The notes below the pieces were generated by a model that saw only the letters and a list, made by a program, of their open reading frames with translations, was not told the origin of the DNA and made no database searches. Of a stretch of 34,254 nt of DNA, positions 8,145 to 34,254 are shown piece after piece (positions within the stretch are counted from its first letter, which is position 1; every line of letters begins with the position of its first letter). This stretch comes from Lachnospiraceae bacterium. GTDB taxonomy: Bacteria; Bacillota; Clostridia; Lachnospirales; Lachnospiraceae. The stretch spans positions 1-34,254 of the forward strand of contig JAFRLH010000043.1 in assembly GCA_017431345.1 (NCBI GenBank). Reading direction: 5' to 3'. Position numbers and translations under genes: made by a program.

Positions 8145-8151
8145 TCAGTCA

Positions 8152-8180
8152 GGGCCGCCGGCTAAGCCGGCGGCCCTTTT
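8152..8180 (+). terminator. Strong intrinsic terminator after the LCP gene
   Basis: An 11-bp perfect GC stem, GGGCCGCCGGC (8152-8162) with GCCGGCGGCCC (8166-8176), a 3-nt loop TAA, then TTTT. It separates the LCP gene from the TIR/channel operon, whose first start is only 42 nt further on. That operon must therefore use a promoter in this short gap (a TATACA near 8185 is a weak -10 candidate) or depend on read-through. Confidence 0.93.
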
Positions 8181-8222: not shown

Positions 8223-10103
8223 ATGACACTTGCCCTGATCTATCTCTTTACAGTCATTTTATTTCTTGTTCTGATGTTCTCGCTTGGATTCCAGCCTGCC
8301 TTTCTTTCCAGACTCAACGGGATCCTCCTTTTCATCACCGGCGCGGTCGGTGTTCTGACCTATGGATACGGTTATTCGGTGATCTGCAGCAGCCCGCTGC
8401 AGGCGATGATCCGCACGCTCTTCTCCGTATTCTGCATGTTCCTCGGAAGAAATGAGATCGGCGCCATAAGCAGCGCACCGCTCCTGCAGGCGCCGGTCAT
8501 GCAGCTGATCATCTATGCCGCCCACCTGTTTGCCCTTTATTGTACTGCCAGTGCAGTCATCGCAGCGCTGGGGACCCGGCTGATCCGTATGGTCAGGCTC
8601 TTCGTCTTCCGCCGTCATGACCTCAATCTGATCTTCGGTGCGAATGACTCCTCCCTGCAGTTTGCCGGACAGCTTCAGCGCGAGAACAGAGGCCCTGTGA
8701 TCTTCACCGACAGGGGAAGCGGCAGCGCTCTTGAAGGCAGGATTTCCGGCATGGGCTGTCTGTTGTTTACAGATGCGGATGCCCAAAAGCCGACTGCAGC
8801 TTTCCTGAAACGCATCGGGATGGCCCCGAACGGCCGTAAACTGCATGTTTTCTGCCTCGATCCGGATGAATCTGCCAATCTCGCCTATGCCCGCAGCCTC
8901 TCCGAAACGCTGCAGGCTCACGGATTCAAGCCTGAACAGGTTCAGCTCAGTGCCATCCTTACAGAGGAATCCTCCGGTGAAGAACTCCTGAGCACCATCC
9001 GGTCAGGGGAACAGGCTGCCGGCGGCTTTTCCAGCGTTATTGCCATCGAAAAACCGGATATGCTGGCACGGCTGATGATCCATGACTGCCCCCCTTTTGA
9101 AACGATGACCTTTGACAGCCAGGCCCTTGCACTGGATGATTTTGAATGCCTGATCATCGGGTTCGGTCAGACCGGTCAGGCAGCGCTGCGCCAGCTGATC
9201 GCGAACGGGCAGTTCGCAGGCAGCGCCTTTCATGCCACCATCGTGGCCAAAGACTATCATACCCATGCCGGAAGCTTCTTCTACCGCTATCCCGGGCTCC
9301 GGGCTCATGAAGACTGGTTTACCGTAATCGATGACAACGCGAAAAGCATTCCTTTTTACGATTACCTTGAAGCGCATCGCCGTACGTTGAATTATATCGC
9401 CCTCTGTACCGGCAGCGACAGGGAAAATGCCGAAATCGCCTATGAACTCCGGGATTATCTTTCCGCCCGGGGCGATCAGCCGGCCATCATGCTGCTCTCG
9501 GAAAGCGGGATCAGCCGGCTGACCGACAGCGGCCTTCAGCTGACCCGGGGGCTGTATACGACGGATATTCTCTGCACGACAAAACTCGACGCCATGGCGA
9601 TGGTCATCAATCATCAGTATCATCTTTCCGAAGGACAGACTGCCGAAGAAGACTGGGCCTCCTGTGACTACTTCAGCCGCCTCAGCTGCCGGGCAAGCGC
9701 GGATTTTACCGATGCTTTCCTGAAGGCCGCCGGCGTCAGCCGGGAAGCAGTCCTCTCGGAAGGCTGGCATCCGGAAGGCCGGATCCTGGAAAATCTGAGC
9801 ATCACGGAGCATATGCGCTGGTGCGCTTTCCACGAGACCATGGGCTACCGGACCATGCCGGAAGACGTTTTTGAAGAACGCGCCGGCAGGTATGAAAAGG
9901 AAAAAGAAGCGGCCGGCACCGCAAAGATCCGGATCACCAAAGATACCGGCAGACGCCTGCACGCCTGCCTGATCCCCTGGGAAGATCTTGACAGGCTCTC
10001 GGAAAGAGAGAATGCAGTGACCGGAAGATCCGTAAATTACAGGGAAATGGACCGTGACAACGTCCGCATGATCCCCGAGATGCTGAAAGGAGCAGGACAG
10101 TGA
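8223..10103 (+). CDS. Membrane protein with two RCK/TrkA-N-like domains and a RyR-like C-terminus
   Basis: 626 residues, first gene of the three-gene operon, with ribosome site GGGGAGG before the ATG. Hydrophobic segments lie at about 3-22, 31-53 and 92-118. Between the last two is a short hydrophobic loop (residues 60-80, SVFCMFLGRNEIG) in the position of a channel pore helix and filter, but it lacks a TVGYG sequence. The cytoplasmic part has two Rossmann-like segments, one starting LNLIFGANDSS (about 135) and one FECLIIGFGQTGQA (308-320, GxGxxG), as in RCK/TrkA-N nucleotide-binding domains. The C-terminal 100 residues (TEHMRWCAFHETMGY, then HACLIPWEDLD and YREMDRDNVRMIP) resemble a RyR domain. 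Likely a non-conducting or altered subunit partnering the next gene product; this role is inferred. Its stop overlaps the next start (GTGA). Confidence 0.8.
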   Translation: MTLALIYLFTVILFLVLMFSLGFQPAFLSRLNGILLFITGAVGVLTYGYGYSVICSSPLQAMIRTLFSVFCMFLGRNEIGAISSAPLLQAPVMQLIIYAAHLFALYCTASAVIAALGTRLIRMVRLFVFRRHDLNLIFGANDSSLQFAGQLQRENRGPVIFTDRGSGSALEGRISGMGCLLFTDADAQKPTAAFLKRIGMAPNGRKLHVFCLDPDESANLAYARSLSETLQAHGFKPEQVQLSAILTEESSGEELLSTIRSGEQAAGGFSSVIAIEKPDMLARLMIHDCPPFETMTFDSQALALDDFECLIIGFGQTGQAALRQLIANGQFAGSAFHATIVAKDYHTHAGSFFYRYPGLRAHEDWFTVIDDNAKSIPFYDYLEAHRRTLNYIALCTGSDRENAEIAYELRDYLSARGDQPAIMLLSESGISRLTDSGLQLTRGLYTTDILCTTKLDAMAMVINHQYHLSEGQTAEEDWASCDYFSRLSCRASADFTDAFLKAAGVSREAVLSEGWHPEGRILENLSITEHMRWCAFHETMGYRTMPEDVFEERAGRYEKEKEAAGTAKIRITKDTGRRLHACLIPWEDLDRLSERENAVTGRSVNYREMDRDNVRMIPEMLKGAGQ

Positions 10104-11653
10104 AGCGTAAGAAGACCCTATTTGCCCTCATTGCAGTGATCCTCTATTTCCTGATGCTCTTTTTGCTGATCGCGGCTGAAAAAGGGGCGCCGGGCGCTTC
10201 CATCACAGGCATCGGCTCTGCCGTCTGGTACTCCCTGACCACCCTCACGACCGTCGGGTATGGCGATATGTATCCGGTCACACTTCCCGGCCGCCTGATC
10301 GGAGCGATGTTCCAGGTACTGAGCATCGGCGTATTGGTAGCCCTGATCACTGCCGCCTTCTCTCTCCTCCGCGGCCGGCTTCTTCCGCTGGCCTACCTGT
10401 GGTTCAGAAGAAAAAGCCATTGGTTTATCTTTTCCGGGATCGATCAGCGCCAGATCCTGACCGCACAGGCCATCGCCAGGGAAAACGATCCTGCTGTGAT
10501 CCTCTTCTGCGACGACGGATCGGATCATGATATCCTTCCTGTCGGTTTCAGCGTCTCGCTTCCTCCTGCAAAGCTGATCGAATTTCAAAAGAACAAAGGA
10601 ACTGCGACAGTATTTGCCATGAGCGATGACCAGACAGAGAACGACCGTCTGGCAGAATCACTGGGAAACACGTCCTGCCGCATTTGCGTTATGACAGACT
10701 ACGAGCCGGACAGGCTGTCTGACAAGCTCATCCTGTATAATCCGTATCAGACCTGCGCCCGCCTGTACTGGTTTCAGTATCCGGTGACGTCTCCCGACGA
10801 AGTCATCGTGATCATCGGAGACGGAAAATATGCCGGAGCCCTGCTGGAACAAGCCCTGCTCTTTAATATCATTGCACCGGATCAGCAGCTTTCCTACCAT
10901 GTCATCGGTGATTTTGAAAATTTCAGGCGCAATCATCCTGCTCTTGACCAGGTCTTTGCTTCCTGTGACCGGCTTGTTTTTCATGAAGGTCCGTGGAATG
11001 AAGATTTTGAGCGCTTAAAGCAGGCAGACCGGATCATCTTCTGCCATGATGATCCCGCGCAGTCTATGGAAGAGGTGACTCAGCTGAAGCGATACTGTCC
11101 TGCAAAGGGAAGGCTCTTTGTCCGCGGCGCGGTACCGCTTTCCGGCTATACATCCTTTGGCACGCAGGAAACGCTTTACCAGCCCGGATACGTTCTTCGT
11201 TCAGAACTGTATCAGACGGCCATCCGCCTGCACCGGATCTATCAGGACTCCGTTGCAGGGGCGCCGGGGTGGGAAGCATTAAACGGATTTCTCAGACGGT
11301 CCAATCTGGCTTCCGCCGACCATCTGCGGATGAAAGTGCGCATTCTGCTGGATTCCAAAGGGGGAACGCTTCCCGAAAGCGCGGCGCAGCTGACATCTGA
11401 CAGCCTGACCCGCGCGGCGCAGATCTACAGATCGCTTGACGATGCAGCCCTTGACCGCTGCCGTCGGATCGAACACGAACGATGGATGCGTTTTCATCTG
11501 ATGAACAACTGGCAGTATGCTCCGGTCCGTGACAACGAACAGCGGAAGCATCCCCTGCTCCGCCCCTACGACGAACTGAGCCGGGAAGACCAGCTAAAAG
11601 ACAGCCACGCCTGGGAACTGATCGAAAAACTAAGCGGAAAGGAAATGCCATGA
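10100..11653 (+). CDS. Two-TM potassium channel with RCK-like region and C-terminal RyR domain
   Basis: 517 residues. TM1 spans about 7-26, a pore helix and filter lie at 40-56 with the sequence TTVGYGD, the signature of K+ channels, and TM2 spans about 66-90. The cytoplasmic part (105-440) looks like a pair of divergent RCK domains (HWFIFSGIDQRQILTAQAIA, then EVIVIIGDGKYAGALLEQAL), which usually bind nucleotides or Ca2+ and gate the pore. The C-terminal 60 residues (EHERWMRFHLMNNWQY, then RKHPLLRPYDELS) match the RyR domain pattern well. The start is GTG at 10100, within the stop of the previous gene, with AAGGAG upstream. The stop TGA overlaps the ATG of the TIR gene. A K+ channel is certain in outline; the gating ligand is unknown. 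Confidence 0.88.
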   Translation: MKRKKTLFALIAVILYFLMLFLLIAAEKGAPGASITGIGSAVWYSLTTLTTVGYGDMYPVTLPGRLIGAMFQVLSIGVLVALITAAFSLLRGRLLPLAYLWFRRKSHWFIFSGIDQRQILTAQAIARENDPAVILFCDDGSDHDILPVGFSVSLPPAKLIEFQKNKGTATVFAMSDDQTENDRLAESLGNTSCRICVMTDYEPDRLSDKLILYNPYQTCARLYWFQYPVTSPDEVIVIIGDGKYAGALLEQALLFNIIAPDQQLSYHVIGDFENFRRNHPALDQVFASCDRLVFHEGPWNEDFERLKQADRIIFCHDDPAQSMEEVTQLKRYCPAKGRLFVRGAVPLSGYTSFGTQETLYQPGYVLRSELYQTAIRLHRIYQDSVAGAPGWEALNGFLRRSNLASADHLRMKVRILLDSKGGTLPESAAQLTSDSLTRAAQIYRSLDDAALDRCRRIEHERWMRFHLMNNWQYAPVRDNEQRKHPLLRPYDELSREDQLKDSHAWELIEKLSGKEMP

Positions 11654-14600
11654 GTCAGGAGAAAGACCGTTCCTATATCGCCTTTATAAGCTATCGTCAC
11701 AGACCGCTTGACAAGCAGGCAGCTGAAAGGATCCAGAAAAGGATCGAAAACTACAGGGTGCCGAAAGAATTCCGGGAAAAAGTCGGCGGGGACCGGCTGG
11801 GCATGGTCTTCCGGGATGAAGACGAACTCCCGGCGTCCTCTTCTCTGTCAGACAGCATCACTTACGCCCTTGACCATTCCAAATACCTGCTGGTCATCTG
11901 CACGCCCGATCTTCCGGAATCCAAATGGTGCGAGCAGGAGATCCGGTATTTTCTCAAGACCCATGACCGCGATCATATCCTGGCTGTCCTTGCGGACGGA
12001 ACGCCGGATGTCTCCTTCTCCCCCTTGCTGCTGCATACCTTTGATGAAGATGGCAATATCACCGGCGATACAGAACCGCTGGCCGCCAATATCGCCGGGG
12101 AGAATCATTCGATCAATAAAAAAGCTTTTCACAAGGAAATCGTACGCATTTATGCCGCCCTCATCGGCTGTCCCTTTGATGCGCTGTGGCAGCGGGAGCG
12201 GCGGGCAAGGACCAACCGGCTGCTCACGCTCTCCGGTATCATCATGGCAGCGATGGCGGTCTTTATCGGCGTCGTTCTTTCCAAAAACGCGCAGATCGCC
12301 GAACAGAATGACAGTCTGCAGCGCCAGATGTCTGCCATAAAAGTAGATACAGGCCGGACACAGCTTGAGAGCTACGATGTCAAAGGTGCGCTGCAGAGCG
12401 GCCTGGATGCACTTCTGGACGATCCGTCCGGCTCTCTTTATGACCACCGGGCGGAAAAACTGCTTGCCGATGCCGCCTACGCCTATCAGGGACCGGACTG
12501 GCACAGCAGCCTGTTATACTCTCAGTCCACCGCAATCGAGACACTGGCCCTGACGCCGGACGGCAGCACTGCCGTTTTTTCCGATGAAGTCCTTACCGTG
12601 CGGGCTGTCAGCACAGCGGACGGCAGCCTTCTCTGGGAATACGCCGCAGAAACAGCGCGTGACAATGCGGATCCCTCTCCGGCAGAAGTATTTGCTTTTC
12701 AGGATCTCATTATCTGCAAATATGCAGACCGGATCATTGCCCGCAGGCCTGCAGACGGCAGCGAGGTCTGGCGGTATACCTATCAGGGCATTGGCGGCAA
12801 TCATTTCAGGGCTTTTAACAGCGACGGCAGCAGGATGATGCTGCTTGATCAGGCAGACGCCGAAGACGAGACGGTCTTCCTGATCGTCCTGGATACCGGC
12901 AGCGGGACCGTGACCGGCAGAAGAAGTGTCTCATCAGAAGTGGATACCGTATCGCTTTCCTGCATGAATCCCTGGTACTTTTACGCCGGCTCCTTTTCTG
13001 ATGACGGCAGATACGGTGCGCTCGCTGTCTATGTCACCCACCGGAAAGCAGACGGGACGGATGCCGGGGAGAACGGCACGCTGAAACTGGCACTCTATGA
13101 TCTTGAAAACTTCACGGAAGTTTACAGTGTTTACGCCGATGAATCGTCGGGGCTTTCAACAATTAACTACGGCGTTGCTGTCATCAATGAAAAAGACCTG
13201 TTGTGTGCAAGATTTACGGGAAGCTACGGCGGGATAACCCTGTCTCTGGTGGACGGCGAGACAAAAAGCGGAACACAGACGCTCACCAATCAGTCGATCA
13301 GTACAAAGACCGGTACTGCCATCGATCTTTTCGGGGAGTACATGCAGGTCATCCCTATGAAGATCCATGACAACCTTGCTCTTATTGCCAGTGAAAACGA
13401 TCTGTTTGTGTACACGCTGGGCACTGAGACGGTACTGGCAAAAGAGCTGTCAGTCCCGGGCAATATCCGCTCCCTTGTCCTGGCGGATGAAAAAACGGAT
13501 GAAGTCTACGCCTGGAACGCAGACGGTGCTGCTTCTTATTACGATCTGGAGCAGGACGGGACAATGGGCAGCTGGGGGGCCACTGATTATGACCAGAAAG
13601 ATATCGCTCATTTATGCCCGTTTTATAATACTGAGAACAATCTGCAGTTCTGCATCTCTGTCATGAACAGTCATCCGGGCAATCTGCTCATCATGAAAAA
13701 TACTTCCGACCCCTCCGGCGAAGTCATTTCCGAGCCGTCCTGGAAGGATCTGCTGACCAATTGCCAAGTCGCGTCGTCGCCTTCAGAAGATATTGTCTAT
13801 ATCAAATACAAAGAAAACGACACTGAGCAGTTCAGTGTCGCCGCCTTCGATGCGGCAGATCATAAAAAACTCTCCAGCACATCTTTTGATCTGGATTTCT
13901 TTGACAATACCATTTTCGGCATGGATCAGGAATCTTTTCTTCTGGGCAAATATCTCTTCCGGCTCGACGGTACCAGAGAATATTATCTTGAAAATATAAA
14001 CGAAGCCAGTGAATCAGATTTCATGGACGGTTATTTCCGGCATATTGCCCTGTCAGACGGAACCGTTATGACCGTCTATGACTGCTGTGCAGCGAAGAGC
14101 ACGACGCTTGTTCCTGTGTGGCTGGATGGTAAGCTGGTCTCTGCTTCCTGTGATCTTCCGGCCGGCATCTCCTTTGAAGACGGGAAAATCATGGAGACCG
14201 GCGGAAACGGGCTGGTCGTCGGTTATGGGATCCATCGATACAAACAGGAGGACGGCACCCTCATTACTGCCGAAAAAGACGGTTTCATGATCTTTGACGC
14301 CATCCATGAGAAGCGGTTTATCTTTGACGACCGGCATCCGGAAGCAAGGGAACGAATGCTTGCCGTCGGAAATGCAGCGCCGGTCTTTGCCTGCGCAGAT
14401 GAACTGGGTCATATCTCCCTTTATAATACAGAAACAAATACCTCCGAAGATCTGGACACAGCCTATGCGATCAGTGAGATCAGAGCACTGACCTTCTCTC
14501 CGGACGACCGTTATCTCCTCGTGATCACACGCAGCGGGAAACTGGAATGCTTCGATCTCGCTGCGAATACCCGTGTCTTCTCGGAACAGCCGGATATCTT

Positions 14601-14877
14601 CTCTTCTTTCCGCTATACCTATGTCGATCAACTGACATGCACTGCCAGCAAGGACGGAAGATACCTGTATCTGAAAGCCAGTAAATCGAACGATCCCTAT
14701 GGGCTCTGGCTGAGTCTGGACCAGACCTCCTGGACGGTGGCTGCCTCCTCCGATCTCGTTTATGAATCCCTTCCCGCGGATGATCATCTGTATGCATGGC
14801 GCAGCGAGGCTGTTTACCGGTATCCGCTCCATTCCCTGGAGGATCTCACAGCACAGGCGAAGGAAAGATTGGAATAA
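11650..14877 (+). CDS. TIR-domain protein with one TM helix and a large beta-propeller region
   Basis: 1075 residues. The TIR domain fills about 5-175: YIAFISYRH at the first strand, FRDEDELPASSSLSDSI, YLLVICTPDLPESKWCEQEI, then ILAVLADG. Trp93 and Glu97 sit where TIR NADases keep the catalytic glutamate, so hydrolysis or cyclisation of NAD+ is possible. A basic stretch RERRARTNR (182-190) precedes a single TM helix (about 190-211) and a short coiled coil (212-230). By the positive-inside rule the TIR domain is cytoplasmic and the C-terminal 800 residues are outside. That region has repeated DGS.., PDG.. and SPDDRYLL-like blades (for example FSPDDRYLLVITRSGKLECFDL) typical of WD40/PQQ-like propellers, probably two. 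The ATG overlaps the channel gene stop (ATGA). No terminator is visible between its end and alaX. Confidence 0.88.
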   Translation: MSQEKDRSYIAFISYRHRPLDKQAAERIQKRIENYRVPKEFREKVGGDRLGMVFRDEDELPASSSLSDSITYALDHSKYLLVICTPDLPESKWCEQEIRYFLKTHDRDHILAVLADGTPDVSFSPLLLHTFDEDGNITGDTEPLAANIAGENHSINKKAFHKEIVRIYAALIGCPFDALWQRERRARTNRLLTLSGIIMAAMAVFIGVVLSKNAQIAEQNDSLQRQMSAIKVDTGRTQLESYDVKGALQSGLDALLDDPSGSLYDHRAEKLLADAAYAYQGPDWHSSLLYSQSTAIETLALTPDGSTAVFSDEVLTVRAVSTADGSLLWEYAAETARDNADPSPAEVFAFQDLIICKYADRIIARRPADGSEVWRYTYQGIGGNHFRAFNSDGSRMMLLDQADAEDETVFLIVLDTGSGTVTGRRSVSSEVDTVSLSCMNPWYFYAGSFSDDGRYGALAVYVTHRKADGTDAGENGTLKLALYDLENFTEVYSVYADESSGLSTINYGVAVINEKDLLCARFTGSYGGITLSLVDGETKSGTQTLTNQSISTKTGTAIDLFGEYMQVIPMKIHDNLALIASENDLFVYTLGTETVLAKELSVPGNIRSLVLADEKTDEVYAWNADGAASYYDLEQDGTMGSWGATDYDQKDIAHLCPFYNTENNLQFCISVMNSHPGNLLIMKNTSDPSGEVISEPSWKDLLTNCQVASSPSEDIVYIKYKENDTEQFSVAAFDAADHKKLSSTSFDLDFFDNTIFGMDQESFLLGKYLFRLDGTREYYLENINEASESDFMDGYFRHIALSDGTVMTVYDCCAAKSTTLVPVWLDGKLVSASCDLPAGISFEDGKIMETGGNGLVVGYGIHRYKQEDGTLITAEKDGFMIFDAIHEKRFIFDDRHPEARERMLAVGNAAPVFACADELGHISLYNTETNTSEDLDTAYAISEIRALTFSPDDRYLLVITRSGKLECFDLAANTRVFSEQPDIFSSFRYTYVDQLTCTASKDGRYLYLKASKSNDPYGLWLSLDQTSWTVAASSDLVYESLPADDHLYAWRSEAVYRYPLHSLEDLTAQAKERLE

Positions 14878-33137: not shown

Positions 33138-34254
33138 TTATTCCACGTTGCCGGTTATCATGCCCCACATGAAACAGGCAAGTTCTCTGGCTACAGCAGT
33201 TTTTGCAACATTGTTCTTCTTATTGTTTTTAAGGACCATGCGATAGTATTTCCGTCGTAAACGTTCGTTGGCTTTGTCAGCATAGGCAATAACCTCTGGT
33301 GGATTTCCATCCTGTCTGGCTTTTAGTGCCTTAGATTTAAAACCGATGTGTCCACGACTATAGCTCTGCGATGCTTCTACCAGTAAAGAACGAACGTGGC
33401 GGTTTCCAGCTTTGGTAATACCGAGGTGGATTTGATCGTCCCCGCTCGAATCCTCTCCGGGTGTAAGTCCAATGTAGGAAGCAAAGTGCTGAGCAGAGGC
33501 ATAACGTTTAAAATCGCCGACTTCCGTAAGCACAGTCAGAGCAGTCACAGTTTTGACACCCATAAAGCAGGACAGTTTCCGGACATTCTCCTGATAGGTT
33601 ACATTTGACGCAAGCTCTTCGATACGTTTATCAAACCGCTCCAGTTTATCGGTGAGAGTATCATATGTCAGGAGATACTCCTGCAGAATCTCTGCGTACA
33701 AGCCTTCTGGTTTTAAGGCTCTGAGCCATTTCAGATGCGCTAAAGTCCAATAGTTGGTTGTACCGTCAAATCTGTAGTTGTGCCGCAGGCAGAATGAAAG
33801 GATCTGCTGCTTCACCTTTTTGAGGGCTAGTTTATGATCATCCCTCATGCGGATATATTCCTTGGTCTGCTCATCCTGTTCTGTTGGGATATGGACCGGT
33901 GAATAATCATGATGTGCCAGGCACCTGGCAATCAGCGCGGCGTCACGCTTATCGGTTTTGACCTTCTTCCTGCCCTTCTGCTGAAGCATCGTGGTGGGTG
34001 CAAGGATGACGCACTTCACGTTATGAGCCGTCAACTGGTGATACAACGTAAACCCGAGGCAGCCAGCCTCATAACCGCATATGAACAGAGCATCGTCTCC
34101 GTAATGGAAACGCATAGCCTCGATATAGTTGATGACTTTGTTGTAATGGCCGTCAACTTTCTGAGGATATTCAGCTTGTTCTTTTTCGTTTGTGTAGCAG
34201 CAAAGAGAAAAAGTTTCCTTGTGTACATCCATTCCTACGTAGACTGTGCTATAC
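33138..34254 (-). CDS. IS110-family transposase/recombinase, 5' end beyond the window
   Basis: The reading frame is open to the right edge; before the first in-window ATG (34232) the frame reads YSTVYVG, the usual lead-in to VGMDVHKE in this family, so the true start lies outside. The N-terminal RuvC-like DEDD domain shows Asp2 (MDVHKETF), Glu55 (GYEAGCLG), and Asp94/Asp97 (KTDKRDA), numbered from that ATG. The C-terminal domain has ASYIGLTPGEDSSG followed by GITKAGNRHVRSLLVEAS, containing the conserved serine used by IS110 recombinases. It looks intact within the window. The EPS operon promoter starts about 470 nt past its stop. Confidence 0.93.
   Translation of the reverse strand, partial: YSTVYVGMDVHKETFSLCCYTNEKEQAEYPQKVDGHYNKVINYIEAMRFHYGDDALFICGYEAGCLGFTLYHQLTAHNVKCVILAPTTMLQQKGRKKVKTDKRDAALIARCLAHHDYSPVHIPTEQDEQTKEYIRMRDDHKLALKKVKQQILSFCLRHNYRFDGTTNYWTLAHLKWLRALKPEGLYAEILQEYLLTYDTLTDKLERFDKRIEELASNVTYQENVRKLSCFMGVKTVTALTVLTEVGDFKRYASAQHFASYIGLTPGEDSSGDDQIHLGITKAGNRHVRSLLVEASQSYSRGHIGFKSKALKARQDGNPPEVIAYADKANERLRRKYYRMVLKNNKKNNVAKTAVARELACFMWGMITGNVE

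Follow-up and report, generated by a model that had tools for sequence, protein, structure and literature searches.

A candidate TIR-to-channel signalling module with RyR-bearing potassium-channel-like subunits in a Lachnospiraceae bacterium

Here we describe a block of three overlapping genes in a 34,254 nt stretch of DNA from a Lachnospiraceae bacterium, a relative of common gut species (GCA_017431345.1, contig JAFRLH010000043.1, positions 1-34,254 of the forward strand; hereafter "the window"). On the plus strand the block encodes a channel-like subunit with a transmembrane/pore-like region, tandem RCK domains and a diverged RyR domain (gene 1, 8223-10103, 626 aa), a K+ channel with tandem RCK domains and a C-terminal RyR domain (gene 2, 10100-11653, 517 aa, GTG start) and a protein composed of a TIR domain, a single transmembrane helix and a propeller-like C-terminal part (gene 3, 11650-14877, 1075 aa). 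Genes 1 and 2 overlap by GTGA at 10100, and genes 2 and 3 by ATGA at 11650. We consider it reasonably probable that the three genes make up a TIR-to-channel signalling module with a messenger-gated channel, in which the ligand binding, the NADase activity and the gating are putative.

Results and discussion

TIR and RyR genes lie close together far more often than expected by chance, a co-occurrence on which an earlier sequence-only reading of this DNA had staked its proposal. Two genome samples were chosen by RyR alone, regardless of TIR, from the phylum (398 genomes) and from the class (391 genomes). RyR was found in 10 genomes of the phylum sample, seven of which carry TIR_2 at a distance of ≤5 kb. 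The class sample contained RyR in 27 genomes, with TIR_2 at ≤5 kb in 10/27 (10/20 if counted by genus). In the union of the two samples, which have three genomes in common, TIR_2 is located ≤5 kb from RyR in 15 of the 34 genomes, versus a chance expectation of about 0.6% per gene, as estimated from the TIR_2 density in these 34 genomes (0.63 per Mb) with rounded genome sizes and kinship ignored.

The same linkage is seen among the relatives of gene 2. The 80 relatives examined with their flanks (loci L067-L146) were the top-ranking ones among 174 found with a search pattern containing EH[IE]RW. Contigs carrying two labels were not counted twice (L076 = L032 from genome G111, L068 = L148 from G647, L136 = L035 from G150 and L144 = L037 from G005). 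TIR genes in these loci were located using a TIR hidden Markov model built in this study; the TIR in L079 is a fragment at the contig edge. In total, 37 TIR genes fall in the 148,581 bases that lie no more than 1 kb from the channel operon, versus 8 in the 975,574 bases further out, i.e. 0.249 versus 0.0082 per kb, a thirty-fold difference in density. Counted by locus, a TIR gene is found within 1 kb in 37/80 relatives, and in 23 of the 55 whose flanks extend 2.5 kb or more in both directions. It lies downstream on the same strand in 22 cases, upstream on the same strand in 7, upstream on the opposite strand in 6 and downstream on the opposite strand in 2. These four arrangements, together with several types of TIR partner, argue against a single inherited gene order. 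Of the 18 closest loci, 14 contain the pair of genes 1 and 2, and all three genes are found jointly in relatives too, beyond chance.

Gene 2 shows the characteristics of an RCK-type K+ channel, with a TVGYGD selectivity filter (residues 51-56; 10250-10267, plus strand), a KcsA-like pore with two transmembrane helices, and RCK lobes. Pfam reports Ion_trans_2 (6.9e-11) and, at the C-terminus, RyR PF02026 (4.1e-7; 30.6 bits versus a cut-off of 27.4), which makes the tail (residues 441-517; 11420-11650, plus strand) a member of this family; compared to PDB ryanodine receptors the match is 4e-17 (phmmer). The AlphaFold model (mean predicted local distance difference test, pLDDT, 91.6; predicted template modelling score, pTM, 0.83) matches tandem-RCK gating rings. 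The suggestions that one subunit is a clear K+ channel and that it combines RCK with a RyR-like C-terminus are therefore both confirmed.

Gene 1 is more diverged. Pfam yields no noteworthy match for it, and none of the 15 members of its family matched Pfam RyR at E<=0.1, i.e. all fall short of the PF02026 cut-off. The C-terminus profiles of gene 1 (15 sequences) and gene 2 (22 sequences) match each other with a probability of 98.2 (E 3.6e-14); eight control windows outside the RyR domain gave profile-comparison values of only 0.1-0.5. The RyR-like domain deduced in this way spans residues 493-626 (9699-10100, plus strand), contains about 25 extra residues and carries H530, W533, H580 and D610, all four invariant in the 15 sequences. 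A K+ filter is not present in gene 1: FLGRNE occupies that position, within the filter-like motif MFLGRNEI (residues 72-79; 8436-8459, plus strand) that replaces TVGYGD. The core G-[RK]-[NS]-[ED] is retained in 13/13 gene 1 relatives with an N-terminus (one of 14 is without it), and the fuller motif MF[LI]G[RK][NS][ED][IFY] fits 12 of these 13, with IFTGKNDF in L081. The AlphaFold model (mean pLDDT 89.1, pTM 0.81) again matches tandem-RCK gating rings. Fold searches with both subunit models listed no RyR chain but barely sampled the RyR part and are thus neutral; the RyR assignments in both subunits come from sequence comparison. The idea of a second RCK-RyR membrane protein consequently stands for the modelled tandem RCK and for the RyR domain at the level of profiles, but not at the level of Pfam.

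Both RyR tails carry the residues known to matter in phage relatives. According to the accessible part of PMC13232231, phage RyR proteins bind or cleave the cyclic ADP-ribose (cADPR) isomers 2'cADPR and 3'cADPR via H75, W78, H100 and D117. An alignment of 10 rows was prepared, including Mycobacterium phage Baudelaire gp81, Ruegeria and Pectobacterium phage RyR proteins and both window tails, with RyDEP itself left outside; the numbering was taken from Baudelaire gp81 and is identical to that of published RyDEP. All four positions, plus L109, are invariant in 10/10 rows, the equivalents being H459, W462, H484 and D501 in gene 2 and the four residues named above in gene 1. The H-16-D spacing is retained in 76/80 gene 2 relatives, while the invariance of the H..W part in these loci is no test since it was contained in the search pattern. 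Both window tails thereby resemble cADPR-binding RyR proteins at the contact residues, and binding is putative; the phage biochemistry, as far as the accessible part of that paper covers it, provides a plausible ligand for the RyR domains of the channel. Baudelaire gp81 (L152:375-785) is flanked by a gene annotated as phosphoribosyl pyrophosphate transferase and one annotated as nicotinate ribosyltransferase, a setting among NAD-type salvage genes of the same kind as published for RyDEP.

The architecture proposed for gene 3, TIR followed by a transmembrane helix and a propeller, was recovered, although the propeller match is only just above its cut-off. Pfam reports TIR_2 (1.8e-9; 38.6 bits versus a cut-off of 28) for the TIR domain (residues 8-182; 11671-12195, plus strand) and PQQ_2 (2.1e-6; 28.0 bits versus 27.6) besides weak WD40-type matches for the propeller-like region (residues 280-1075; 12487-14874, plus strand). 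The TIR domain can be aligned with the plant L6 and Roq1 and the bacterial 7uxr TIRs (E 6e-4 to 0.01), and E97 (11938-11940) aligns with the SKWC..E / WTE..E glutamate of L6 and 7uxr, which we take to be their catalytic residue. This putative catalytic glutamate is retained in 44/46 TIRs surveyed. Match and glutamate together fit a catalytic TIR, with NADase activity putative. The single transmembrane helix begins near residue 188, and the positive charges preceding it (judged by eye) predict that the TIR is inside the cell and the propeller-like part outside. In comparison to L070, identity is 86% in the TIR, 44 and 34% in the outer part and 61 and 64% in the RyR tails; conservation among the closest relatives is highest in the TIR, and the outer part diverges fastest. 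Such a pattern is expected of a fixed messenger with a changing sensor. The genome that carries the window encodes a second TIR-transmembrane-PQQ protein of 1115 aa (L153:265-3612), whose TIR is 41% identical to that of gene 3.

Proposed mechanism

In the module we propose, the outer part of gene 3 would sense a signal outside the cell or in the envelope, upon which the TIR would cut NAD+ into an ADP-ribose messenger, most likely 2'cADPR or 3'cADPR. The gene 1 and gene 2 subunits would form a mixed tetramer, and binding of the messenger to the RyR domains would open the pore (closing seems less likely). The resulting K+ flux would shift the membrane potential and lead the cell to arrest its growth or to protect itself against phages or attacks on its envelope. 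The sequence-only reading had run the same course from TIR via a nucleotide and a channel to stress signalling or defence. Its domains and the TIR-RyR linkage hold up, while no defence island is evident, no PADLOC or NCBIfam system was found and four of the 18 closest relatives are TIR-free over long flanks.

More tentatively, and with somewhat less than even confidence, a wider receptor-to-channel pathway can be envisaged, in which single-pass receptors with an outer sensor and an inner TIR would make a cADPR isomer that opens RyR-type membrane proteins. The outer sensors would be a propeller in the window and leucine-rich repeats in L156 and L157. This pathway might, on an equally tentative footing, be a prokaryotic parallel of Toll-like receptors and of animal cADPR-RyR signalling, and would be the first case of a cADPR signal acting on the RyR domain of an ion channel in the same operon.

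Several observations weigh against the proposed module. No TIR is seen in the stretch covered in 38/80 gene 2 relatives, nor in 8/18 of the closest loci, and while four of these eight end near a contig edge, the other four (L071, L073, L080, L083) are flanked by 7 kb or more on either side. All ten loci titled Butyrivibrio are without TIR, and the two Butyrivibrio loci viewed and five loci of genus g2 have identical neighbours, as a core gene would. TIR-free close relatives imply that the channel may also use a distant TIR or another signal, or serve plain K+ homeostasis. The 10.75 kb contig of the second TIR-transmembrane-PQQ protein contains no RyR gene detectable by motif or BLAST. Gene 1 carries its RyR domain below Pfam detection, as a putative assignment by profile comparison, and its transmembrane part shows no sequence match to that of gene 2 (hhalign probability 1.2), leaving a shared sequence ancestry of the two regions unsupported. 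Among the eight phage homologues tested in the accessible part of PMC13232231, binding was mixed (6/8), one cleaved, and none was channel-borne. Finally, the flanks in the window look by eye like housekeeping genes (lysS, greA, an antiporter, htrA, LCP, AlaX-like, dapF and arg genes); a location in a defence island is not supported by the window.

Alternative explanations

Four other scenarios have to be weighed. In the first, which we regard as unlikely, the TIR merely consumes NAD+, and RCK lets the channel respond to the levels of NAD+, ADP or ADP-ribose; RyR would be an accessory adenine-nucleotide site and no dedicated messenger would exist. GsuK with ADP or NAD bound is indeed among the nearest structures to the models of both channel subunits, and a GxGxxG-like stretch is retained in RCK2 of gene 2 (by eye). 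What the otherwise different TIR-linked proteins (tandem-RCK, four-transmembrane, AAA and small RyR-only) have in common, however, is RyR, which points to RyR rather than RCK as the receiver.

Slightly less likely still is a scenario in which the TIR serves as a scaffold, and physical contact with the receptor, instead of a diffusible nucleotide, gates the channel. A membrane receptor and a membrane channel encoded by overlapping genes would suit such contact well. Yet the near-general retention of the catalytic glutamate would be unexpected, and the same type of RyR is also found beside partners without a predicted transmembrane helix or with very different sensors.

It seems improbable that the RyR domains switch the signal off by cleaving or sequestering the messenger, in the manner of phage RyDEP, with the channel responding to a trigger of its own. 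The catalytic pair of RyDEP (H75, D117) is also retained here, and small RyR-only genes occur beside TIR genes (G770, G833), but seven of eight tested phage homologues were non-cleaving despite conserved residues (PMC13232231, accessible part), and an off-switch fused to both channel subunits would be odd. Least of all do we expect the channel pair to be a K+ or osmotic housekeeping system with functionally unlinked TIR genes next to it, since the TIR-free channel pairs among housekeeping genes (by eye) and the Butyrivibrio loci stand against the thirty-fold local TIR enrichment, the 15/34 genomes versus 0.6% expected, and a block that comes and goes as a unit.

Genomic context

The trio is an accessory unit in its genus. 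In G640 (same genus) the two flanking genes are only 92 bases apart and the trio is absent, whereas G647 carries the whole trio (82% identical) at the same site; gene 1 was found in 2/11 genus genomes, several of them incomplete. The three overlapping reading frames and the strong terminator noted upstream of them in the sequence-only reading were both confirmed. The terminator is an intrinsic-terminator-like stem-loop at the end of the upstream LCP-family gene (8151-8177, plus strand) with 12 pairs, 11 of them G-C, and a T-rich tail, and it is by far the strongest of 9 terminator-like sites in the window, where 5.6 are expected.

A named system was also considered. PADLOC and NCBIfam gave no system-level match; what they returned were incomplete matches to TIR or repeats that scored far under their cut-offs. 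No publication describing a bacterial TIR together with a RyR channel was found, the latest TIR system types lying outside the comparison. A mobile element is likewise unsupported: no related gene was found in viral contigs, nor in plasmids at E<=1e-12, and the window contains no tRNA. A reading frame resembling an IS110-type transposase (by eye) lies at 33138-34253 on the minus strand and is cut by the window end. A defence role of the block is possible, and so is a stress role.

The TIR partners of the channel are diverse. Pfam annotation of 19 partners, hand-picked from 45 for diversity so that proportions are uninformative, gave 5 propeller-like proteins, 4 with MORN repeats, 3 with Sel1/TPR, 2 with weak STAND/NB-ARC plus TPR, 1 with TPR, 1 with DUF6273 and 3 with nothing further. 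In G770 and G833 (L156:2152-7378, L157:1-4658) a TIR-transmembrane-leucine-rich-repeat protein, in layout like an inverted Toll-like receptor, adjoins a small RyR-only gene and a four-transmembrane protein ending in RyR (match just under cut-off). The G111 locus (L032/L076) has two TIR genes, the shorter of which (L076:5073-5915) is without the catalytic glutamate position and is perhaps a regulatory TIR. At L043:4032-11326 a TIR-transmembrane protein 28% identical to gene 3 lies beside a CASTOR/POLLUX-like channel, whose Castor_Poll_mid match (20.3 bits) falls short of the 26.7 cut-off, with an adjacent RyR-like membrane protein recognised by BLAST only. RyR-RCK proteins without a K+ filter occur in L113, L144 and L035-L039 (Butyrivibrio, genus g2), in a common housekeeping neighbourhood and without TIR. 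RyR is also found fused to TrkA_N, as well as to a domain resembling SLOG (24.9 bits, slightly short of the 25.4 cut-off), RelA_SpoT and AAA (L062:18814-19899, L044:2823-5027 and L066:8812-11004), as if it were a general receiver module.

Should the proposed module be real, gated ion channels would join the effectors of TIR signalling. Host RyR domains would gain a role, and phage RyR proteins would mimic the host's own receptor. The module would also be widespread and so far unnamed by defence-finding tools in the libraries searched. cADPR has been linked with the gating of animal ryanodine receptors (PMC13232231, accessible part). Its direct action on these receptors is an old question, which a small operon with a TIR enzyme and a RyR channel makes testable.

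Comparison with known systems

The closest functional parallel is Thoeris (a SIR2-SLOG or transmembrane-macro ThsA plus the TIR protein ThsB), where, as far as the accessible sources go, a TIR also adjoins an effector that binds an ADP-ribose derivative; according to the accessible part of PMC11204291 the transmembrane-macro type has a membrane effector as well. Here, in contrast, the effector is a RyR-bearing tandem-RCK channel pair, and the TIR forms part of a membrane receptor whose outer portion is large. In none of the three proteins did Pfam detect a SIR2, SLOG or macro domain, and no Thoeris model of PADLOC or NCBIfam reached cut-off or full length, newer Thoeris types being outside the comparison. 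Because no known Thoeris effector is present we do not class the block as Thoeris; by analogy, its mode of action may resemble that of Thoeris, with an effector of a new type.

With phage RyDEP and its RyR relatives, the window tails have in common the fold family (PF02026) and all four positions that contact the ligand. Those proteins, however, are small, phage-encoded and remove a host signal, whereas RyR here forms the tail of host channel subunits beside a TIR. GsuK, other tandem-RCK K+ channels and plant CASTOR/DMI1 resemble the subunits described here in their pore of two transmembrane helices, which is KcsA-like in gene 2, and in having a pair of RCK lobes in each chain; the added RyR domain, a gene 1 without K+ filter and the operon with a TIR receptor set the present subunits apart. 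Animal ryanodine receptors, finally, also bear the RyR repeat (PF02026; 4e-17, phmmer) on an ion channel. Theirs is a large Ca2+ release channel, in contrast to the K+ type pore with RCK found here, and it is likely that ryanodine receptors and gene 2 have the module, not the channel, in common.

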